Positions 1 to 41,078 of a DNA stretch of 64,000 nucleotides are shown here, piece by piece (within the stretch, counting starts at the first letter, position 1; every line of letters starts with the position of its first letter). The position numbers and the translations under genes were made by a program. This DNA is from Monodelphis domestica (taxonomy: Eukaryota > Chordata > Mammalia > Didelphimorphia > Didelphidae). The stretch is taken from positions 262,202,976 through 262,266,975 of the forward strand of contig NC_077230.1 in NCBI RefSeq assembly GCF_027887165.1, written 5' to 3'. The notes beneath the pieces are model-generated. The model did no database searches. It worked only from the letters and a program-made list of their open reading frames with translations, and was not told the DNA's origin.

Positions 1-2957
1 AATCTTTCCCTTCCCAAAGGTCTAACAGGTATACTATTCTGTGTTCACCTAATTTACTTATAGTTTCCTTCTTTATGTTCAAGTTATTCACCCATTCTGA
101 ATTTATCTTGGTGTGGGGTGTGAGGTGTTGATCCAAACCTAATACCTCCCACACTGTCTTCCAATTTTCCCAGCAGTTTTTTATCAAATACTGGATTTTT
201 TTTTCCAAAAGCTGGGGTCTTTGGGTTTGTCATAAACTCTCTTGCTGAGATCATTTACGCCAAGTCTATTCCACTGATCCTCCTTTCTGTCTCTTAGCCA
301 GTACCAATTTATTTTGATAACCACTGCTTTATAGTATAGTTTGAGATCTGGGACTGCAAGTCCTCCTTCCTTTGCAATTTTTTTCATGATTTCCCTGGAT
401 ATCCTTGATCTTTTGTTCTTCCAAATGAGCTTAGTTATCGTTTTTTCTAATTCAGTAAGGAAGTTTTTTGATAGTTCAATGGGTATGGCACTAAATAAGT
501 AAATTAATTTGGGTAGGATTGTCATTTTTATTATGTTAGCTCGTCCCATTCATGAGCAATCAATGTTTTTCCAATTGTTTAGATCTAGTTTTAGCTGTGT
601 GGAAAGTGTTTTGTAGTTGTGTTCATATAATTCCTGTGTTTGTCTTGGCAGATAGATTCCTAAGTATTTTATATTGTCTAGGATGATTTTGAATGGAATT
701 TTGCTCTCTAATTCTTGGTGCTGAAATGGGGTAGAGATATATAGAAATGCTGATGACTTATGCTGGTTTATTTTGTATCCTGCAACTTTGCTAAAGTTGT
801 TGATTATTTCGAGTAACTTTTTGGTTGATTCTCTAGGATTCCTTAAGTAAACCATCATATCATCTGCAAAGAGTGATAGCTTGGTCTCCTCACTGCCAAT
901 TTTAATACCTTGAATTTCTTTTTCTTCTCTAATTGCTACTGCTAGTGTTTCTAGTACAATGTTAAATAATAGAGGTGATAATGGGCATCCTTGTTTTACT
1001 CCTGATCTTATTGGAAAGGCTTCTAGTTTATCCCCATTGCAAATGATGTTTGCTGATGGTTTTAGATCTATACTGTTTATTATTTTTAGGAAAGGCCCTT
1101 CTATTCCTATACTTTCTAGTGTTTTCAATAGGAATGGGTGTTGTATTTTATCAAAGGCTTTTTCTGCATCTATTGAGATAATCATGTGATTTTTGTCACT
1201 TTGCTTGTTAATATGATCAATTATGTGGATCTTTTTCCTAATATTGGACCATCCTTGCATTCCTAGTATGAATCCTGCCTGGTCATAGTGGATGACCCTT
1301 GTGATGACTTGCTGGAGTCTTTTTGCTAGTATCCTATTTAGGATTTTTGCGTCTATATTCATTAGGGAGATTGGTCTATAGTTTTCTTTCTCTGTTTTTG
1401 ACCTGCCTGGCTTTGGGATCAGTACCATGTTTGTGTCGTAGAATGAATTTGGTAGAACTCCTTCTTGGTCTATTCTGTCAAATAGTTTGTTTAATATTGG
1501 GATTAGTTGTTCTTTGAATGTTTGATAGAATTCATTTGTGAATCCATCTGGACCTGGGGATTTTTTCTTAGGAAGTTCTTTGATGGCTTGTTCAATTTCT
1601 TTTTCTGAAATGGGGTTATTAAGGTAATTTATTTCTTCCTCTTTTAGTCTAGGCAATTTATATTTTTGTAAGTATTCATCCATATCACCTAGATTGCTAT
1701 ATTTGTTGCCATATAATTGGGCATAGTAGTTTTTAATGATTGCCTTAATTTCCTCTTCATTAGAGGTGAGGTCTCCTTTTTCATCTTGGATACTGTCAAT
1801 TTGGTTTATTTCTTTCCTTTTTTTAATTAGACTGACTAGTACTTTGTCTATTTTATTTGTTTTTTCAAAGTACCAGCTTCTAGTCTTATTTATTAAATCA
1901 ATAGTTCTTTGACTTTCAATTTTATTAATTTCTCCTTTGAGTTTTAGGATCTCTAATTTAGTCTTCATCTGAGAATTTTTAATTTGTTCACTTCTAATTT
2001 CTTATTTGCATGCCCAATTCATTGACCTCTGCCCTTCTTAATTTGGTAACATATGAACTCAAGGATATAAATTTCCCCCTGAGTACTGCTTTGGATGCAT
2101 CCCATAGGTTTTGAAAGGATGTCTCATCCTTGTCATTTTCTTCAATGAAGTTATTAATTGTTTCTATGATTTGTTCTTTAACTAACAGGTTTTGGAGAAT
2201 CGTATTGTTTAATTTCCAATTAATTTTCGATTTACCTCTCCATGTTCCTTTACTAATTATTCTTTTCATTGCATTGTATCTGAGAAAGTTGCGTTTATTA
2301 TTTCAGCTCTTTTGCAATTGTTTGCAATGTTTTTATGCCCTAATACATGGTCAATTTTTGTAAATGTACCATGTGCTTCAGAAAAGAAGGTATATTCCTT
2401 TTTGTCCCTATTTATTTTTCTCCACATGTCTACTAACTCTAATTTTTCTAAGATTTCATTCACTTCTCTTAACTCTTTCTTATTTTTTGGTTTGATTTAT
2501 CTAGTTAGGATAGAGGAAGGTTCAGATCTCCCACTAGTATAGTTTTTCTATCTATTTTGTCCTTGAGTTCCTCTAGTTTCTCCTTTAGAAATTTGGATGC
2601 TATGCCATTTGGTGCATACATGTTGAGTACAGATATTTCCTCACTGTCTATACTGCCTTTTATCAGGATGTAATTACCTTCCCTATCTCTTTTAACTAGA
2701 TTTATTTTTACTTTGGCTTTGTCAGATATCATGATTGCGACTCCTGCCTTCTTTTTGTCAGTTGATGCCCAATAGATTCAGCTCCACCCTCTTACTTTCA
2801 CCCTATGTGTATCTACCTTTCTCATATGTGTTTCTTGTAGACAGCATGTGGTAGGGTTTTGGACTCTAATCCACTCTGCTATTAGCTTGCGTTTTATGGG
2901 TGAGTTCATTCCATTCACATGCAGAGTTATGATTACTAGCTATGTATTTCCCAGCAT
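1..2957 (-). pseudogene. L1 ORF2 (endonuclease/reverse transcriptase), broken, C-terminus off window
   Basis: ORF2p nicks DNA and reverse-transcribes L1 RNA at the nick. The start ATG is taken at 2957-2955 because LHVNGMNSPIKRK, the endonuclease N-terminus, follows in frame. Endonuclease motifs are LQETHM (about 2830) and VGDLN (about 2515). The reverse transcriptase lies in 550-1968, with [56 protein letters not shown] and the catalytic LFADDMM, all intact. The thumb and C-terminal part continue to base 1 ([10 protein letters not shown]-like region near 330). Breaks: in-frame TAG at codon 6 (2940-2942), TGA at 2778-2780, TAA at 2505-2507, at least two frameshifts between 2505 and 1968, TGA 550-552 (a Trp codon in relatives) and a frameshift at an A-run near 190. 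Confidence 0.95.
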
Positions 2958-3718
2958 TTTGATTTCTGCTCCTTTACCTGCCTTTTCTTCTTTCACTATT
3001 TCCTTCTACACCAATGTTTGCTTTTGAACAGTCCCCCTTGTTCCCACCCTTATTTTACTTCCCTTTCTACCCCCCTCCCTATTTATCCCCTGCTTATTTC
3101 CCCTGTAATCTTTCTAAAATTAACCCCCCACTCCCTCCCTCTCTTTTACTGCTTCCCTCCCCACCAGACCGTTTGTTACCCTTCTACTCCCCTATAGGGT
3201 GCATATCTATTCTCTGCCCCCAATGGATTGGATTGTTTTTTCCCTCTTTGAGTCACTTTCAAAGCACGTAAAAGTTGAGTATTTCCTGTCTCTGACCTCT
3301 TTACCCTTCCAGTGTATTGATGTTCTTCCCCCTCCCACCATGAGCTTCTTTATGACATATAAATTTATCCCCATTTGTTTTTTTTCCCATTTCTTTTAAT
3401 ATTAACCTATTTTAAGCTCTAGTTATATATATATATATATGCATACTTATGCATATGTATTTTTGCATGCATATATCTATATACCTATTTATGTCTTGTC
3501 CTTTCATCCTATACAATTTATTGCTGTTCCCTCTAAGTATACTTCTTTTTGCTGCCCAGCTAATAATAACAGTTTTTAAGAGTTACCAATGACCTCTTTT
3601 CTTATAGGGATACATATCATTTTAACTTATTGAGTCTCTTAAAATTTTTTTTGTTTTTCTTTTTTCCCCTCTTTTTTAATTACCATTTGATGATTCTCTT
3701 GAGTTCTGTGCTTGGACA
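2958..3718 (-). other. Long inter-ORF spacer of the L1
   Basis: About 760 bp separate the ORF1 stop (3719-3721) from the first ATG of ORF2 (2957-2955). On the L1 sense strand it is purine-rich (the plus strand shows long C/T runs at 3020-3400) and holds a short (AT)n tract at about 3422-3440. I see no coding signal on the minus strand; the plus-strand open frames at 3014-3399 are low-complexity C/T sequence. Placental L1s usually have a spacer of tens of bases, so this length is notable. No insertion boundary or TSD is visible inside it, so it seems native to the family. Confidence 0.75.
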
Positions 3719-4804
3719 TCAAATTTTCTGTTCAGGTCTGGCCTTTTCTTTATAAATTCTTGAAATTCTTCTATTTTGTTGAATGACCATACTTTCCCCT
3801 GTAAGAATATAGTCAGTTTTACTGGGTAGTTGATTCTTGGTTGTAGACCTAGTTCTTTTGCTTTCCCGGAATATCGTATTCCATGCCTTTCTTTTTTTCA
3901 GTGTGGATGCAGCCAGATCCTGAGTTATCCTCACTGTGGTTCCTTGGTATCTGAATGACTTCTTCTTGGCAGCTTGTAATATCTTTTCTTTGGTCTGGTA
4001 GTTCTTGAATTTGGCTATAACATTCCTGGGTGTTGTCAGTTGGGGATTAAGTACAGGAGGTGATCTGTGGATTCTATCAATCTCCACTTTTCCCTCTTGT
4101 TCAAGGATTTTGGGGCAGTTTTCTTTAATAACTTCCTGTAATATAATGTCCAGGCTTTTTCTTTTGTCATGGTCTTCTGGTAGGCCAATAATTCTTAAAT
4201 TGTCTCTCCTTGAACGATTTTCTAAATTCTCTGTTTTGTGAATGAGATGCTTCACATTTTCCTCATTTTTTTCATTCTTTTAGTTTTGTTTTATAGTGTC
4301 TTGCTGCCTTGTGAGGTCGCTCAATTCAAGTTGTATTCTGGTTCTTAAAGACTGGATTTCATCCTTAGTTTTTTGGTCGTCCTTTTCCTTTTGGTCAGAT
4401 TTTCTTTGGAGGTCATTTTTCATCTTCTTCACCTCATCTTTCATCTGCTTTGCCTCATCTTTCATCTCCTTTGCCTCATTTTCCAGCTGGTTGATTTTGG
4501 CTTTCAAGACACTATTTCCTGTTTCCAGATGACTTATCTTAGTTTTTAAGTTCTTTTCCCAATTGTCTTCAGCCTCTCTTAATTGTGTTTTGAATTGCAT
4601 TTTGAATTCTTCCAAAGCCTGTATCCAATTCACTGGGATTTCTGATTTTTCCTTTGCTGGGTCCTCCCCCTCTGTTTCATTCGCTCTTTGCTCATTACCT
4701 GTGCAAAAGCTGTCTATTGTAATTTCTTTCTTCTTTTTCTGTTGTTTGCTCGAGTTTGCCCCTTCTTTGCTCCCCGTATTTGGCTATGCTCTTGCTCCTC
4801 TCAT
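3719..4804 (-). pseudogene. L1 ORF1 (RNA-binding chaperone protein), two in-frame stops
   Basis: L1 ORF1p is the trimeric coiled-coil RNA-binding protein of the L1 particle. One frame of 362 codons runs from ATG 4804-4802 to TGA at 3719-3721. Codons about 7-60 are polar and lysine-rich. A long heptad-like coiled coil follows (about 60-170, rich in E, K and Q, with repeated KEMKDEAKQMKDEVKKMKN-type units). Then come an RRM-like part with NLRIIGLPED and a C-terminal domain with VRITQDLAAST. Two in-frame stops break it: TAG at codon 7 (4784-4786) and TAA at codon 175 (4280-4282), the latter exactly between coiled coil and RRM. The frame is otherwise kept. Starts at GTG 4633 or at internal ATGs are artefacts of these stops. 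Length suits an L1 ORF1p. Confidence 0.92.
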
Positions 4805-16620: not shown

Positions 16621-17484
16621 ACTTCCTCTATCTTAGCTAAACTTTTCCAAAATGTAATGGAAAAAGACAATATTTTAGATAGCCATATCTTTTTTAGTTT
16701 AGAGTGCCAACAAAAACATCTGGAATTGACAACTAAGGTGAGACTCCATCATTCACTAAAGAAAGTACTAAAATGAAGCAGCCTGAACATATCTTATTTC
16801 CAATTGAATTTGTTATCATTTAGTTCAAAGATGTAAAATCATAATGGCTCTTTCTAAATGTTGGACTAAATAATTAATAATATCCCAAATCAGTTTACCA
16901 GATCCCTGGTTGATTTATAGTCTTATTACTTGTGAACAACTCCTAAAATGAAATTTTGCATTTCTTAATATCAAGATTTACTAATGACATGAATGCCTCT
17001 AATTTTCTCCTTTGGTGAATGTTGAATTCATTTATTTCCTTATTTAAATACATGTCCTGTTTTTATTTGCATAGAGAAAAACATAAAACTCTTGTCCTTA
17101 ATTTCAAGGTCTCCTACATTATTCTCCTTGGACAATGCAATTATCTTCTTTATTTCCTGTTTGTTCTTCTATGTGGTTCAAATCCTTCAAACTTCTCTTT
17201 TGGTTTGCTTCCATAGGGTTTACTTCTACATTCTTCTCTATTCCCATTTTATTTGTAAATGATCCTTTCTTCTTGAAAATTAGAAAGAAAAAAAAAACTA
17301 TTGGTGAAAAAATAGCATATAAATCCAAATCATGAGATCTTAAAGCCAGAAAGGACTCCAAGGTCTTCTAGTTGAGTTTTCTGCCCAAAGATGAATTCCC
17401 TTTTCAGCTGATGGGTGGATGGAATTACTCAGTTGATCTTTGAGAGATCAAGGAAAGGACTGGAGAAGGGAAAATATAAAAATT
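16621..17484. other. No recognised feature
   Basis: AT-rich, single-copy-looking. 17325-17395 faintly resembles an L3/CR1-like 3' end. Open frames at 17019-17361 overlap on both strands and match nothing that I know. Confidence 0.4.
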
Positions 17485-30243: not shown

Positions 30244-30844
30244 TCAGTTTTATTCTTTAGTAAGATCAGAATCATTCTTATTCAAAAGACTATAACTTCC
30301 ATTGACCACTCTGATATTTCTCTCCCTAAAGCTCACGAACTCTGCCTTGACCTGCCAGGCATGGTAGGCAAGACTGTGTTAAATATTTTGTGGGGGGGCT
30401 TTTACCTAAAATTTGGCATCACGATCTTGGGCTTAAAGTCTAAAATTCTGAGAGGATTCATGCTACAGGATGCCCAGGTTAAGGTTAATGGACCTCTGCA
30501 GCTTTGTGTCTAAGAAAGGGTGATCCAGCCTTTTAGTTTCTGGATAAGACTGATAAGATGCCATGTTTAGAAAACAAAATGGATTCCATCTGGGAACAAT
30601 CAATGAAGTGTTTGTTTTAATGATAGAGGAGATAGAAGATTCAAGCTTATCTCCAGAATTAATCAACAAAAATGTAACTGACCTTCTGCTTTACAAGATA
30701 AAGCAAAAACATTTAACAAGCAAGCAGTCCTACTTTCCAGGAGGATGAGAAAACACAGATCTTAATCTTACTTGTTCAAAAGTGGAGAAGGGAAAGAGGA
30801 ACTAGGATCAATTTTATGTCAGGTGAAAGGAGTCATTTGGTAAC
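30244..30844. other. No recognised feature
   Basis: Single-copy-looking. Open frames at 30181-30513 and 30563-30748 have no family resemblance; the first starts within the SINE. Confidence 0.35.
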
Positions 30845-31085
30845 AATAGGCTATAACTTGTATAGCACTTTTTGGTTTGCAAAGTACTTTACATGTGTTC
30901 TCATTTGATTCGTATAACAACTCTATGAGGGATGTGCTGTTGCTATTCCCATTTTACAGATTACAGATGAGGGAATTGGACTTTGAGGGTGTCACTTGCC
31001 CAAAAAGTGTTTGAAGGAAGATTGAAACTGAGTTCTTCTTGACTCTAAATCAAGTTCTCTATCCATTAGTCACTTGGGTGCTACA
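30845..31085 (-). mobile_element. CORE-SINE with L2-like tail, near full length
   Basis: Plus-strand order from tail to head: cttgtatagcactttttggt, tgcaaagtactttacatgtg, acaactctatgagggatgtg, cccattttacagattacaga, ctctatccattagtcacttg. Confidence 0.85.
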
Positions 31086-31329
31086 ATTAAAAGATGGTTT
31101 TGTTATTCTTGTTGCTTTATTTTTTTTGGTTACTTTTTTTTTTTGGGCAGAGGGTGAGATAAGAAAAGACACAAGGGAAAGTTAAAATTAAAAAGCACTC
31201 TCATTCCATTAATTCTGGCTTTGGGAAAGGGATAAGGAAAAAGGATAGGGCAAAAATAGGGGAATTTTAATTTTTTGCTTTTTGAAATCTTATTTATCAT
31301 TTCTTTGCTATCAAATTAAAATGCATCTG
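31086..31329. other. No recognised feature
   Basis: A T-rich run at 31120-31144, then A/G-rich sequence. Confidence 0.3.
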
Positions 31330-31700
31330 CTACTTTTTGTAGCATCAAAGGACTGGAAACCAAAATAAAAGTCCATCAATTAAAAATGGCTAAACAAATT
31401 ATTGTACATGGATGCAAACTAATATTATTCTCCCTTTAAAAGGACGAATATGATTCAGAGAAGAGTGGGAATACCTATATGGACAAAGTCAGGCAAACAG
31501 AATAATGAAAAAATACACAAAACAATTACTCCAACAACTTAAATGGAAGGACCATAAAAAACAAAATTGAAACTCATAACTGTAATTACACTTAATAAGC
31601 TTGGATTAAAGAAATGTTATTCTTTCCTTTCTTTAGAAAAGTGGGGGATATAGGCATGAAAAATTTCTTACATTGTCTTTTTTAATTCTTTGTCATAAGG
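31330..31700 (+). mobile_element. Old L1 3' region
   Basis: A worn plus-strand match to L1 ORF2 C-terminus and 3'UTR: tagcatcaaaggactggaaa, gtccatcaattaaaaatggc, taaacaaattattgtacatg, gtcaggcaaacagaataatg. No frame remains. Confidence 0.6.
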
Positions 31701-32502
31701 TACAACACTGGGAAGCATAAATAAGCTCAACTGAGAAATGAAAGTGATATAAAAATGAAATATATATATATGTATTCATATATAAAGAAAAAGAAATTGT
31801 AAAACAACGTAATTCAATCTACTATGATTTTCACTAATTGTGAAAATTCTCTCCACTTGATCTCATCTATTATGAAGTTGTCAGTTATTTTCAAATTTAT
31901 ATTAAAAATTCTAGATATCCCAATAATTATTTCAGACTCCATAGTCTCTGCTGAGAGAATTCCCTCACACACACACTGTCAAAGGATGAAATTGAGTAGA
32001 GCAGTAATCATTGGAAGACTATGATGCAAGCTTAGGGAACATTTAAGCAAAGGCTTTTTTTTTCCATTAAATTTTCAAAAGAAAGAATCTCAGCTCCCTT
32101 CATCTCTAACCTAAGCACTCACAGATTGTGGACTGGGCCAGGTATAAAAGTGGCATATCCAGAAACACAGCTAATGTTTTGCCCATTTAAGATTTCCCAA
32201 TAAGCCACTATCATGAGTAGTGGCAATGATATGCACAATTAAAAAAGATTTTATTTTCCACCTGATTTATATGTGCACATGCAATTAGCAATAACAAAAA
32301 AATAATAGAATTTTTCTGTGTTCTCCTTACCAATGGTTGAATTTCTTTTACCAATTATAAATTCTTTCTGTTACTGTTTTATCAGAATTGTGCATGGTAT
32401 ATAATATATGTCCTTGCATTGGGGAGGAGGCTACCAGAGCAGGCAATTCAAAATTCATGGAAAAACACTGCCAGATGGAGAAAAGAGGTTTTTTGAAACT
32501 CC
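31701..32502. other. Unique sequence left of the inversion
   Basis: AT-rich, no repeat recognised. It ends at the left inversion breakpoint. Confidence 0.4.
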
Positions 32503-32524
32503 AGGGTTTTCTAGAATTTTCTAT

Positions 32525-35096
32525 CCAATCTCTCTAATGAACATCGATGCAAAAATCTTAAACAGGATACTAGCAAAAAGACTCCAGCAAGTGATCAGAA
32601 GAGTCATTCACCATGATCAAGTAGGATTCATACCAGGAATGCAGGGCTGGTTCAATATTAGGAAAACCATCCACATAATTGACCATATCAACAAGCAAAC
32701 CAACAAAAACCACATGATTATTTCAATAGATGCAGAAAAAGCCTTCGATAAAATATAACACCCATTCCTATTAAATACACTAGAAAGTATAGGAATAGAA
32801 GGGTCTTTCCTAAAAATAATAAATAGTATATAGCTAAAACCATCAGCTAACAACATCTGCAATGGGGATAAACTAGATGCATTCCCAATAAGATCAGGAG
32901 TGAAGCAAGGGTGCCCATTATCACCTTTAATTATTTAACATTGTACTAGAAACACTAGCAGTAGCAATCAGAGAAGAAAAAGAAACTGAAGGCATTAAAA
33001 TAGGCAAGGAGGAGACCAAGTTATCACTTTTTGCAGATGATATGATGGTCTACTTAAAGAATCCTAGAGAATCAACAAAAAAGCTAAATGAAATAATCAA
33101 CAACTTTAGCAAAGTTGCAGGATACAAAATAAACGGCACATAAGTCATCAGCATTCCTATACATTTCCAACACATCTCAGCAGCAAGAATTAGAAAGAGA
33201 AATCCCATTCAAAATCACCTTAGACAAAATAAAATACTTGGGAATCTATCTCCCTAAACAAACACAGGAACTATATGAACACAACTACAAAACACTCTCC
33301 ACACAATTAAAACTAGACTTGAGCAATTGGAAAAACATTAACTGCTCATGGGTAGGATGAGCCAATATAATAAAAATGAACAACCTACCCAAACTTATCT
33401 ATCTATTTAGTGCCATACCCATTGAACTTCCAATTTTTTTTCTGAATTAGAAAAAAATCATAACAAAGTTCATTTGGAAGGACAAAGGATCAAGGATATA
33501 CAGGGAAATAATGAAAAATAATACAAAGGAAGGTGGCCTTGCAGTCCCAGATCTCAAACTATACTATAAAATAGTGGTCATCAAAACAATTTGGTACTGG
33601 CTAAGAGACAGAAAGGAGGATCAGTGGAATAGACTTGGGTTAAGTGACTTCAGCAAGACCGTCTATGACAAAACCAAAGACCCCAGTTTTGGGGGCAAAA
33701 ATCCACTATTTGGCAAAAACTTCTGGGAAAACTGGAAGACAGGGTAGGAGAGATTAGGTCTGGATCAACACCTCACACCCTACACCAAGATAAACTCAGA
33801 ATTGATGAATGACCTGAACATAAAGAAGGAAACTATAAGTAAATTAGGTGAACACAGAATAGTATACATGTCAGACCTTTGGGAAGAGAAAGACTTTAAA
33901 ACCAAGCAAGACATAGAAAGCGTCACAAAATGTAAAATAAATAATTTTCATTACATCAAATTAAAAAAGTTTTGTACAAACATGTACAATGTAATCAAAA
34001 TTAGAAGGGAAGCAACAAATTGGGAAACAATCTTCATAACAAAAACCTCTGACAAAGGTCTAATTACTCATATTTATAAAGAGCTAAAGCAATTGTACAA
34101 AAAAATCAAGCCATTCTCCAATTGATAAATGGGCAAGGGACATGAATAGGCAGTTTTCAGCCAAAGAAATTAAAACTATTAATAAGCACATGAAAAAGTG
34201 CTCTAAATCTCTTATAATCAGAGAAATGCAAATCAAAACAACTCTGAGGTATCACCTCACACCTAGCAGATTGGCTAACATGACAGTGAAGGAAAGTAAT
34301 GAATATTGGTGGGGATGTGGCAAAGTTGGGACATTAATGCATTGCTGGTGGAGTTGTGAATTGATCCAACCATTCTGGAGGGCAATTTGGAACTATGCCC
34401 AAAGGGCTATAAAGAAATGTCAGCCATTTGATCCAGCCATAGCACTGCTGGGTTTGTACCCCAAAGAGACAATAAGTAAAAAGACTTGTACAAGAATATT
34501 CACAGCTGTGCTCTTTGTAGTGGCAAAACACTGGAAAATGAGGGGATGCCCTTGAATTGGGGAATGGCTGAACATATTATGGCATATTTTGGTGATGGAA
34601 TACTATTGTGCTAAAAGGAATAATAAATTGGAGGAATTCCATGGAGACTGGAACAACCTCCAGGAAGTGATGCAGAGTGAGAGGAGCAGAACCAGGAAAA
34701 CATTGTACACAGAGACTGATACACTGTGGCACAATCAAAGGTAATAGACTTCTCCATTAGTCTCAATGCAATGTCCCTGAACAACCTGCAGGGATCAAGG
34801 AGAAAAAAAAACCACTAACCACAAGCAGAGGACAAAAGGTGGGAGTAAAAACACCAAGGAAGGACAACAGCTTGACTACAGGGGTAGAGGGGATATGATT
34901 GAGGAGAGACTCTGAATGAACACCCTACTATGGAAACTGATAGCATGGAAACGGGCTCAGGTTGAGGATGCATATGATACCCAGAGGAATTGTGCATCGC
35001 CAATGGGAGAGGTGGGGGAGGAAAAAAAGGTGATCTTTGTTCCTAATGAATAACGTTTGAAAATGACCAAATAAAATATTGTTTAAAATTTTTTTT
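32525..35096 (+). mobile_element. L1 3' part (inverted half of a split L1)
   Basis: Begins in the reverse transcriptase ([13 protein letters not shown]) and runs to the L1 3' end with a poly-A signal (ccaaataaaatattg, about 35070) and a short A-rich tail. The ORF2 frame has several stops and frameshifts (for example TAA at 32756-32758 right after EKAFDKI). ORF2 ends near 34743; the 3'UTR is about 350 bp. RT motifs KQGCPL and FADDMM are present. It is followed by the TSD aaaagctaatttttca. Its 5' continuation is the minus-strand piece at 37923-38409. Confidence 0.95.
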
Positions 35097-35112
35097 AAAA
35101 GCTAATTTTTCA

Positions 35113-35725
35113 ATACTTGGCAAAATTTTTTTGATAACTGTTATCTGACATTTCAAGATTCAGATTCTCTCCCTGTGTTCCTTTCCTCCAACATTCCCAA
35201 GATGGTAGATAGTCTGATAAAAGTCATGACAGTGGTGCCATATAGTATATATTTCCATATTCTTCATGCCATGAAAGAAGACATATATCACCCATACATT
35301 GTAAAATTCATGAGGAAAATGAAGTGGGAAATGGCATGCTTTAATCTATAATCAGGCTCCAACAGTTTCTTCTTTGGATGTGGAAAGCATTTTTTTAGGA
35401 ACCCCTTGGGATTATCTTGGAATCTTGCATTACTTAAAATAATTTAGTTTTTCCCAGTTGATCATCTTACAATATTTCCATTACTGAATATAGTGTTCTG
35501 GTTCTGCTCCCTTCACTTTGCATCAGTTTACATAAATCTTTCCAGGCCTCTTTCTGAATTCACCCCTTTTGTCATTTCTTATGATACAATAGTATTCCAT
35601 TACAATATACCACAACTTTTTCAGACATTCCCCAATTGATTAACATTCCCTCAGTTTCTAGTTCTTTGCCCCTAAAAATGAGGTGATAAAATACCTTTTA
35701 CAAGTACTTTCCCCCTATTATTTCT
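35113..35725 (-). mobile_element. Older L1 3'UTR and ORF2 end fragment
   Basis: Reversed L1 tail landmarks: ttctggttctgctcccttca, tttgcatcagtttacataaa, gatacaatagtattccatta, acattccccaattgattaac, cagacccaaaagtggtactg. The left limit is uncertain. It lies inside the inverted segment, so it was originally on the other strand here. Confidence 0.75.
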
Positions 35726-35964
35726 GTTCTCTTTCAGATACAGACCCAAAAGTGGTACTGGCAGCATTAATTCTTTATGTTTCTATTAAAGTGTGGTTCT
35801 AGTTTTCTTTCTATTATTAGACATTGTTCTCATAACCTACTGGCTCACTGAAATTTCAAAAAACCTTTCTTTCCTTGACAGACTCCATGCTGGTACATCT
35901 TTCTGGAGGGAGAAAAGGAATAAAAAAATTTTAAAGCATTATACATATGCATATATATACAAAC
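35726..35964. other. No recognised feature
   Basis: Short unique AT-rich stretch. Confidence 0.3.
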
Positions 35965-36212
35965 ACAAATAAAAACATTTATATGTATCACATACTGTGC
36001 TAAGCAGTTTTTGCAAACACCTCATTTGATGCTAACAACAACAATGTGATGTATATTCTATTATTATCTCATTTTTTCACTTAAGGAAACTGAAACAAAC
36101 AGAAATTAAGTGACCTGGAGTCATTTAGCTAAAATATTTCTGAGGTCAGATTTGAAGTCACTTATTTCTGACTTCAGGCCCAATGCTGTATTTATTGAAT
36201 CACTACCTGTCT
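35965..36212 (-). mobile_element. CORE-SINE with L2-like tail, diverged
   Basis: Tail to head on the plus strand: tactgtgctaagcagttttt, gcaaacacctcatttgatgc, cttaaggaaactgaaacaaa, agtgacctggagtcatttag, ttctgacttcaggcccaatg. Confidence 0.7.
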
Positions 36213-36624
36213 TTGGCAGTGAAGATCAAGAGGCATAATAAGTATAGGATTGTGTTAAATTCCTACTCAGGACTTTCTAGTTTGTAAAAGTCATAGCGTA
36301 TTCTCTAAATCTCATTGTTAAAGGTAGATCCCATCTCTTCACAGTGCATGGAACATAGTAGGTATTCAACACATATCGACTCACGGGATTCCGTGGCTGA
36401 GAGAGTATATTTGGAACTGTGTTAACTTGAAATGGCATCAGCATTTAGATTTGACCAAAAACTCTAAAGTGAGACTAAGGAGAAGGCAGGAATGTGGACT
36501 TTTATGACCCTTGACATTTTTTCTTATATTTTATAATGATTTATTGGTATCTTTTTTTAATACCACCTTTATTCCTAAAATATTCCTCCTTCTCTCTCAT
36601 GTACCCAGTGAGCCATCCATTGTA

Positions 36625-36629
<5 letters not shown>
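36213..36629. other. Unique, with a possible L2 3' end at 36315-36385
   Basis: cacagtgcatggaacatagt then aggtattcaacacatatcga is a worn plus-strand L2 terminus. The rest shows nothing that I recognise. Confidence 0.4.

Positions 36630-36669
<40 letters not shown>
36630..36669. repeat. (TA)n microsatellite
   Basis: About 20 uninterrupted TA units, probably length-polymorphic. Confidence 0.95.
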
Positions 36670-36671
<2 letters not shown>

Positions 36672-36814
36672 AAAGAATGAATAAAAGTAGTTCAGTAAAA
36701 CCAATACATCAACAAAGTCTGATAGTGTATGGACATAGCATTCCACGCTCATGGTCACCCATTTGTAAAAGGAAGTGAAACTGGTTTCATGTTCTTTTGC
36801 ATAAAAATAACTGG

Positions 36815-37641
36815 TGTGTAAGGGTTAAAATAGGGGTTTTGACAAAATAAGAGAACAACTTTTAATAAATTAAATTTTAATGAGACTATATTAAAATTGT
36901 AAATTAATATTATCCCTTCAAGCCAGAGAAAAGAAAACTTCTAGCAATTCCTAAATTCTAAAATTAACAATTTAGTTTAATTAATATAGAGATATTAAAA
37001 TAATTTAGCAAAATGAATATAGTAAAGGAGAAAAATATAGGGCAGAGGTAGAGAAATAAATTTCCCAATACCTAACTAGCTAGCTTATAACTATCTATAA
37101 CTGTTTATAATTACTATCTAAAACTGCCTATATTTACCTATAACTAACAACCACCCCACAAAGTTCTAACCCAATCCAGCCCAACCCAATCAAAACCAAA
37201 CCAATTAGTGAGTGTTTAATCCAACCACAATTAGGTCTGTCAACAAAGACCAGCTGGCCACCTTCCAAAAAGTTCAAGGAAGAGAAAAAACCCTAATAGC
37301 CCAAACCAAAAGCCCAAAACCCCAAAGGCAAAAAGACGTCTAATGGCTAAAGCCAAAAGCCCTTTCAGTAAGCTCAGGCCCACCTTTATATTTTAGCAAC
37401 TAGAGGCCAACCACCAACTAATCACCAACTAATCACCAACACACTCCTAGAAACCAATTTCCTGCAATTGCCAACCCTGTCAGCAACTGACAGATCAACC
37501 AACTAACCCTCAGTCCCTTTTATAAGATCCTCCTACCTCACTTCCTATCTATTTGGTTCCTCCTTCCTGTCTCTATTGTTTCTCCTTCTTGTCTCTATGA
37601 TTTCTCTTTCCTGTCTGTGAGGTCTGGTTAATCCCTACACA
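36815..37641 (+). mobile_element. LTR-like fossil
   Basis: About 827 bp with imperfect inverted ends (TGTGTAAGGGTTAA / TTAATCCCTACACA, 12 of 14) and a TATA-like box (ccttttataagatcc, about 37520), as in a solo retroviral LTR. No clear 4-6 bp TSD. An imperfect direct repeat of about 40 bp (gttcttttgcataaaaataa at 36791; gatcttttgcataaacatag at 37721) brackets it. A poly-A-like aataaagaattcc near 37688 suggests that the right limit may instead be about 37750. Old, no internal region. Confidence 0.5.
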
Positions 37642-37922
37642 TCTCTATGGTAAGAGGACCTCCATGTGTCTCATTAAATTAAAAAAGGAATAAAGAATTC
37701 CTTTCTAAATCTGGTTGCATGATCTTTTGCATAAACATAGCTAGTTTGAGAATTTTTTCATAGGAAAAATAAAACTTTTCCAGTTTTCTAGAATTTTCTA
37801 TAATATGTAGGCTTCTTTTTTTCCCTTCTTTCCTATTTCACCATAAAAGTGTCTAGAATATACAGACTTCAGCCAAACTATGCAACAATTTAAGGTAAAT
37901 CTCTTATGATGGAAGAACCCTG

Positions 37923-38409
37923 GAGATTGGTCTGTAATTTTCTTTCTCCATTTTTGATCTACCTGGCTTTGGAATCAGTAAAATATTTGTGTCATAAAAG
38001 GAGTTTGGTAGCATTCCCTCTTTGCTTATTATGTCAAATAGTTTGTATAGTATTGGGGTTAGCTGTTCTTTGAATGTTTGACAGAATTCACTAGTGAATC
38101 CATCAGGCCCTGGGGATTTTTTCTTAGGGAGTTCTTTGATGCCCTGTTGGATTTCTTTTTCTGATATGGGATTATTTAAGAATTCTATTTCTTTTTCTGT
38201 TAGTCTAGGCAATTTATATTTTTGTAAATATTCATCCATAGCGCCTTAGATTGGCATATTTATTGCCATAGAATTGGGCAAAGAAGTTTTTAATGATTGC
38301 CTTAATTTCTTCTTCATTGGAGGTAAGGTCCCCCTTTTCATCTATGATACTGTTAATTTGCTTTTATTCTCTCCTTTTTTAATTAGGTTGACTAGTATCT
38401 TCTCTATCT
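37923..38409 (-). pseudogene. L1 ORF2 part (non-inverted half of the split L1)
   Basis: Minus-strand reading gives [20 protein letters not shown], then [20 protein letters not shown] and ENYRPIS, the start of the L1 reverse transcriptase, ending exactly where the 32525 piece begins. The 5' end is truncated near 38409 and followed by the TSD copy (tgaaaaagtagctttt, 38409-38424). One frameshift near 38245. Confidence 0.93.
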
Positions 38410-38424
38410 GAAAAAGTAGCTTTT

Positions 38425-38789
38425 AAAAAACAGAATTAGTGCTAGCTCTGTAACCTTATAAAAATCACTTACAGATTCTCATTATTCTACAAGTGACGTA
38501 TGATAAGCATTACTCTTTCTGTTTTTATCTCAAAAAGGCATTTAATCACCTAATAATCAATTAAGTGTCATCTATTTAATAGGATATTATGTCAAGGTTG
38601 AGATACAATTTCAAAATTAAGAATACACTATCCTCTAATAGAGTATAAACTTCTTGGGGGCACATTTTGTCTTAATTTTGAATTTGAGAATGTTCACAAA
38701 TAAGCAAATATGAGATTTCTATAAAACTAATATACAGTGATTTAAAGAGGGAAAGGCAATAAAAAGTGAAAAAGTTGAAATAGTCTTAT
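38425..38789. other. No recognised feature
   Basis: AT-rich unique sequence to the right of the split L1. Confidence 0.35.
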
Positions 38790-40254: not shown

Positions 40255-41078
40255 AGATGGAGATGATGTGGTAAAATTGAGACATTAATGCATTGCTCGT
40301 GGAGTTGTGAACTGGTCCAAACATTCTGGAGGGCAATTTGGAACTATGCCCAAAGAACTATAAGACAACACATACTCTTTGATACAATAAAAGCACTATT
40401 AGGGCTACATCCCAAATATTTTTTAAAGGGATAAAGGACCTACTTATACAAAAATATTTATAGCTGCTTTTTTTTGGTAGCAAAGAATAGGAAATTGAAG
40501 GGATATCCAACAACTGAAGAATGGCTGAACAAATTGTGGTATATAATGGTGATAGAATACTATTGTGCTATAACAAATGATTAATAGGATGATTTCAGAA
40601 AAAGCTGGAAAAACCTAGATGAACTGATGCACATTGAAATAAGCAGAACCAGGAGAACATTGTACACAACAACAACAATATTGTGGAATGATCAGCTGTG
40701 ACAGACTTGGCTCCTATCAGCAATACAATGATCAGGACAATTCTGAGGACTTATGACAAAGAATGCTATCCACTGCCAGAGAGAGAACTGTTGGAATCAG
40801 AATGTAGATCAAAGCATATGATTTTTCACTTTAATTTATTTGTGTTTTTATTTTGGAGGTTTTTTTATTTGATTATATTCAATTACAAAAATGAACAATA
40901 TGAAGATATGTTTTGAATGAAGATATGTTTTGAATGATAATACATGTATGACCCAGTTTGAATTGCTTGCCAGTTCTGGGAGGAAGGGAGACAAATTGAA
41001 TCATAGAACTTTGTAAAACTTTTTTTGGAAATGTGTTTTTACATGTAAGTGGAGCTTTGTAATTAAAAAAAAAACACT
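40255..41078 (+). mobile_element. 5'-truncated L1 3' end
   Basis: ORF2 C-terminus (gcattgctcgtggagttgtg, aacattctggagggcaattt, gaatggctgaacaaattgtg, cagaaccaggagaacattgt) then 3'UTR and a terminal A-run (41067-41076). Stops throughout. A 17-bp tandem duplication (gaagatatgttttgaat twice) lies at about 40901-40937. Confidence 0.9.

Follow-up and report, generated by a model that had tools for sequence, protein, structure and literature searches.

An L1 element of Monodelphis domestica probably split in two by an inversion of about 5.4 kb after its insertion

How did two oppositely oriented pieces of a long interspersed element 1 (LINE-1, L1) come to end at the same position of its second open reading frame (ORF2) while lying 2.8 kb apart? 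The locus belongs to a stretch of 64,000 nucleotides (nt) of Monodelphis domestica (NC_077230.1, 262,202,976-262,266,975), which was analysed as a whole and is called the window here; all positions are numbered within it. An earlier note, whose letters and coordinates match the window, had interpreted the arrangement as a single L1 insertion that was inverted in part after it had been completed. Our analysis supports this interpretation: judging from the sequence, it is very probable that an inversion of about 5.4 kb split an old, dead L1 copy in two after its insertion. We favour one insertion that was later cut by an inversion because the two pieces are contiguous on L1, their reading frames agree, the partner of the target-site duplication (TSD) stands where it is predicted, and the divergence of the pieces shows no significant difference.

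By their alignments, the two pieces (A and B, Table 1) are adjoining parts of one ORF2. Another L1 in the window, whose single 472-aa ORF (550-1968) spans the break position, served as reference. Piece A aligns to its positions 1851-1367, whereas the first 1369 nt of piece B (32525-33893) align to 1374-3, and since the one alignment ends at 1367 and the other starts at 1374, the pieces abut and share 8 nt (CCAATCTC); the match of piece A extends one further C, to 1366. This is the common end point in ORF2, with 8 shared nt, that the earlier note had described. Moreover, the stop-free part of piece A matches residues 429-533 of the L1 ORF2p in PDB chain 8uw3 (which we take to be the human protein), and the stop-free start of piece B matches residues 532-608, with an overlap of two residues. 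The best E-values against LINE-1 ORF2p chains of the PDB were 1e-36 for piece A and 1.3e-36 for piece B. In Pfam, RVT_1 was found for the start of piece B, and 0 families were found with the submitted part of piece A. The codon frame of A continues into the first frame of B if the 8-nt overlap is counted only once. Membership in L1 is indicated by this relation to L1 ORF2p and by the flanking TSD that appears once the inversion is undone. With gap columns excluded (6 in A, 15 in B), mismatches to the single reference copy amount to 66/482 in A and 154/1363 in B (Fisher p = 0.165), so that the divergence check which the earlier note had called for brought out no significant difference. These values give no hint of two elements that differ clearly in age, although with one reference the test is weak.

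The TSD is the second line of evidence. Its two copies, displaced in the way that had been claimed, are alike at 15 of 16 positions, and base 38409 is common to piece A and the 5' copy. No third copy was found in the 64 kb on either strand at up to two mismatches to either copy, and in a control 5 of 4,000,000 random plus/minus pairs of 16-mers matched at one mismatch or less. Because a T run stands before both copies, the TSD is also readable as 22 nt (35091-35112 and 38409-38430, 21/22 alike); a third copy of this longer form was absent from the window at up to four mismatches, and its match was equalled by 3 of 4,000,000 random pairs. The L1 endonuclease prefers TTTT/AA on the nicked strand, which agrees with the 16-nt reading. 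If both flanks are joined, an empty site results, whose later flank is 99.8% identical to 35091-35700, through the 22-nt TSD. The element's 3' end reads ...TTTAAAATTTTTTTT, followed by AAAAGC, without a clear poly(A) tail. At 35089-35096 the L1 ends in AAAA and then T8, and a T run likewise precedes the 5' TSD copy. Two other L1 3' regions that were looked at are too dissimilar for tail form to be compared within the subfamily.

Table 1. Positions of the L1 pieces, the target-site duplication and the junction features within the window.
Feature	Positions	Strand	Remarks
L1 piece A	37923-38409	-	5'-truncated part of ORF2, to the start of the reverse transcriptase domain; aligns to reference L1 1851-1367
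L1 piece B	32525-35096	+	remaining ORF2 and 3' untranslated region; inside the inverted segment
5' TSD, AAAAGCTACTTTTTCA on the minus strand	38409-38424	-	22-nt reading reaches 38430; adjoins the 5'-truncated end of A
3' TSD, AAAAGCTAATTTTTCA	35097-35112	+	22-nt reading begins at 35091
Former 3' flank of the L1, probably moved with the inversion	35113-37922		between 3' TSD and right junction; former place deduced
CCAATCTC, duplication at the break inside L1, one copy	37923-37930	-	alignment and repeat count
CCAATCTC, duplication at the break inside L1, other copy	32525-32532	+	alignment and repeat count
CTCCAGGGTT, probable duplication at the outer break, one copy	37916-37925	-	shares its CTC (37923-37925) with the end of the L1 piece
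CTCCAGGGTT, probable duplication at the outer (non-L1) break, other copy	32499-32508	+	exact copy
Left-junction filler	32506-32524	+	exact 19-nt copy of 37783-37801; 16 nt (32509-32524) without other explanation
Filler donor	37783-37801	+	about 120-140 nt inside the right end of the inverted segment
Reference L1	3-1968	-	other L1 in the window, unbroken across the break position; matched over 3-1851

Reversing about 32.5-37.9 kb restores the order TSD, A, B, TSD, which is that of an ordinary 5'-truncated L1. The earlier note had proposed a flip of 32503-37925; the order that it predicted is obtained, but its left edge is to be corrected, as 32503 falls inside a composite junction formed by the CTCCAGGGTT copy (32499-32508) and the copied filler (32506-32524). 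The inverted arrangement would be the derived state, since any inserted element was at first in one piece; no outgroup is needed for this argument.

Two L1s that were inserted independently and by chance in opposite orientation 2.8 kb apart would also leave opposed pieces, and L1-like fragments are indeed abundant in the window, with A slightly more diverged than B. Such insertions, however, would need a common cut point in ORF2, an agreeing frame and a 15/16 TSD flanking two different elements; moreover, piece A as matched stops inside ORF2 without a 3' end, and there is no TSD copy at the start of piece B. We regard this explanation as extremely improbable, as the earlier note did on account of the common cut point and the shared TSD.

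Opposed pieces might also be produced at insertion by twin priming, which places an inverted 5' part directly upstream of the 3' part, inside the TSDs and with the priming end at the TSD. At this locus piece A lies past the 3' TSD of piece B, with 2.8 kb and a TSD copy between them, and it is the 5'-truncated end that abuts a TSD. Twin-primed L1s are described as inverted-looking, truncated copies between TSDs (PMC2837659) and resemble the locus in having inverted L1 sequence together with TSDs, whereas the parts are non-adjacent here; the order of the parts contradicts a twin-primed L1. We therefore give twin priming next to no chance, in agreement with its earlier dismissal.

Alternatively, the inversion might have taken place during L1 integration itself, as a complex insertion: the L1 would have suffered a break while half-integrated, and the repair, with template switching by the polymerase, would have turned round 5.4 kb of flank. 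The same element is involved in both events, and the window gives no measure of the time between them. The restored element, however, is 5'-truncated, has both TSD copies and runs on unbroken at the cut, as a completed insertion would, and we consider an origin within retrotransposition very unlikely. If it were true, L1 integration would be a direct source of small flank inversions.

How the post-insertion inversion came about may be read from its junctions. New relative to the earlier note are short inverted duplications at both cuts and a copied filler at the left junction. CCAATCTC is duplicated at the break inside L1, and CTCCAGGGTT, probably duplicated at the outer break, has exactly two exact copies in the window, one per junction. 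A common 10-mer was found in 274 of 200,000 random end pairs (stretches of 30 and 33 nt); when another 200,000 pairs were drawn, 42 had a common 10-mer with at least 5 G+C. The filler stands at the left junction between the CTCCAGGGTT copy and the L1, and its 16-nt core has a single other copy in the window, at 37786. As a control, 57,485 16-mers were drawn from the parts of the window beyond about 32-38.5 kb; 0 of them have a copy lying 200 nt or less from the two non-L1 break ends. On these counts it is the location of the filler, rather than its length of 19 nt, that is telling. Taken together, the junction scars suggest templated end joining, combined with staggered breaks or with repair synthesis, rather than recombination between L1s. 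They also bear on whether the segment was merely misoriented at a repeat during assembly. One junction does lie within a repeat, and the matter is judged here from the assembled sequence; the window, however, contains 0 N, and mis-joining would not be expected to create short repeats together with a filler copied from 120 nt off, which makes an assembly error hardly credible.

We propose the following course of events. A 5'-truncated L1 would have been inserted on the present minus strand, presumably by target-primed reverse transcription, leaving a TSD of 16 to 22 nt. Later, one break would have occurred inside ORF2 at CCAATCTC and another in non-L1 DNA about 5.4 kb off at CTCCAGGGTT, and the freed segment would have been rejoined in reverse, as is indicated by the order and orientation of the pieces. 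In the simplest reading, the staggered ends were filled in, which would account for the short inverted duplications. The right junction would have closed on a 3-nt overlap (CTC), and the left junction after the copying of 16-19 nt from a site some 120 nt within the neighbouring end; this donor end would have adjoined the outer cut before the inversion. The enzymes involved may have been those of non-homologous end joining or of Pol-theta-type alternative end joining with a template switch.

The same inversion could have been generated by replication-based template switching (of the type of fork stalling and template switching, FoSTeS, or microhomology-mediated break-induced replication, MMBIR), a variant of the proposed inversion whose probability overlaps with it. 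This mechanism could likewise account for the microhomology, the copied insert and the presence of repeats at both cuts, and the same ambiguity is raised for another inversion (PMC7584159). More switches would probably be needed, however, than for end joining with one short templated insert, and we regard template switching as possible but rather unlikely.

Several points weigh against the inversion or against details of its proposed mechanism. The order before the inversion is one that we infer from this one sequence. Piece A is slightly more diverged from the reference L1 than piece B (13.7% versus 11.3% mismatches; BLAST identity 85.0% versus 87.6%), and its 13.7% lies just over the range of 8.7-13.4% found in windows of the same length of B, taken every 10 columns. 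CTCCAGGGTT is weaker evidence than its 10 nt imply, since its CTC is also the L1 end, which leaves 7 nt free of L1 and 3 nt that are perhaps L1. At least 7 nt are common to 12,050 of 200,000 random end pairs and at least 8 nt to 3,369 of 200,000. CCAATCTC and CTCCAGGGTT do stand at both junctions and may be the inverted duplications of a staggered-break inversion, but shared stretches of 7 nt are as common among random pairs as just given. Across the window, a second exact copy of a 19-nt sequence is nothing unusual (34 of 3,000 random 19-mers have one), and once both L1 break ends are added to the filler control, 18 of the 57,485 16-mers have a nearby copy. Finally, staggered breaks and replication-based switching are indistinguishable at this locus. 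Because of the random-pair controls for the outer repeat, our confidence in the inversion was lowered slightly; it is still high.

The outer break appears to lie outside L1. At E <= 1e-3, no other match to the outer flank (30500-32524) exists in the window, to which the search was limited, with no repeat library. The joined outer junction gave weak short matches only, for example to 17261-17309 (E 0.002), none of which crosses the restored join. The window was also searched for an older repeat spanning the restored junctions; of the matches at E <= 1 to the joined empty site and the joined outer junction, the self matches alone touched the joins, and this is uninformative as a test.

Inversions with an L1 at a breakpoint are known. 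Among 252 human-chimpanzee inversions, Lee et al. (2008; PMC2603318) describe 41 L1-associated cases in which a single breakpoint has an L1; in one of these 41, two L1s in the same direction were involved. The locus described here most likely belongs with this class, as one breakpoint lies inside an L1 and the other outside L1, the latter being judged within the window and with no repeat library. The cases of that study were found by human-chimpanzee comparison, whereas here one genome is used and the displaced TSDs of one element reveal the event; in addition, one junction has a copied filler. The L1 recombination-mediated inversions (L1-RMI) described in the same paper, for which TSD matching gave the ancestral state, are alike in having L1 at the breakpoint and an inversion as the result; in those, however, two opposed L1s have become chimeric, whereas here a single element is cut and the outer flank has no L1 match. 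An inversion by L1-L1 recombination, which needs two opposed chimeric L1s, was set aside as improbable for the locus, as its pieces form one element and the outer flank has no L1 match within the window.

The junctions may be compared with other systems as well. Staggered-break models of inversion (Kehrer-Sawatzki, 2005; Matzkin, 2005; Ranz, 2007) are set out in PMC7584159, with duplications arising from repair as the alternative. These models expect inverted duplications at the ends, to which the short inverted repeats at both breakpoints of the locus may correspond. The O7 inversion of that paper likewise has a filler that was probably templated by microhomology; its overhangs at one breakpoint are given as 58 and 534 nt, whereas the repeats here measure at most 8 and 10 nt. 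In yeast, templated inverted duplications, mostly of 5-34 bp, are described at breaks and ascribed to foldback (PMC11724301). The 19-nt filler is within this size range, although a simple foldback of the left end would not have copied the strand that was copied here. A literature search turned up no title that we recognised as a report on this locus. The kind of event is known, and the locus exemplifies it clearly.

A cut inside an element with recognisable TSDs allows a single genome to reveal and polarise a small inversion without an outgroup, and the scars at both cuts hint at the mode of break repair. Such inversions could be listed genome-wide by scanning for opposed L1 pairs that abut in consensus coordinates and have a displaced TSD, and the resulting set of junctions would serve the question of how inversions are repaired in the germline.

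The window holds many L1-like fragments. Two 3' fragments near the locus, 35246-35770 (-) and 40265-40668 (+), match overlapping parts of piece B and for this reason look like separate copies, not a second split pair. At the left end of the window, which it reaches, an L1 match extends over 1-4633 (-) and includes the 472-aa open ORF2 stretch at 550-1968; its ORFs at 3719-4255 and 4280-4633 (-) are, by their look, presumably L1 ORF1. An Rfam scan of the window gave 0 matches at the gathering threshold, and an exact 24-mer of the left flank gave 0 matches against viral_contigs. Inside the inverted segment, a possible solitary long terminal repeat (LTR) of about 830 bp was noted at 36815-37641, with the terminal sequences TGTGTAAGGGTTAA and TTAATCCCTACACA; a target duplication was not apparent by eye. 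A 41-nt direct repeat (36778-36818 and 37708-37748, 83% alike) flanks this LTR candidate and extends a few bases into its start, and an (AT)n run of 40 nt is found at about 36628-36668.

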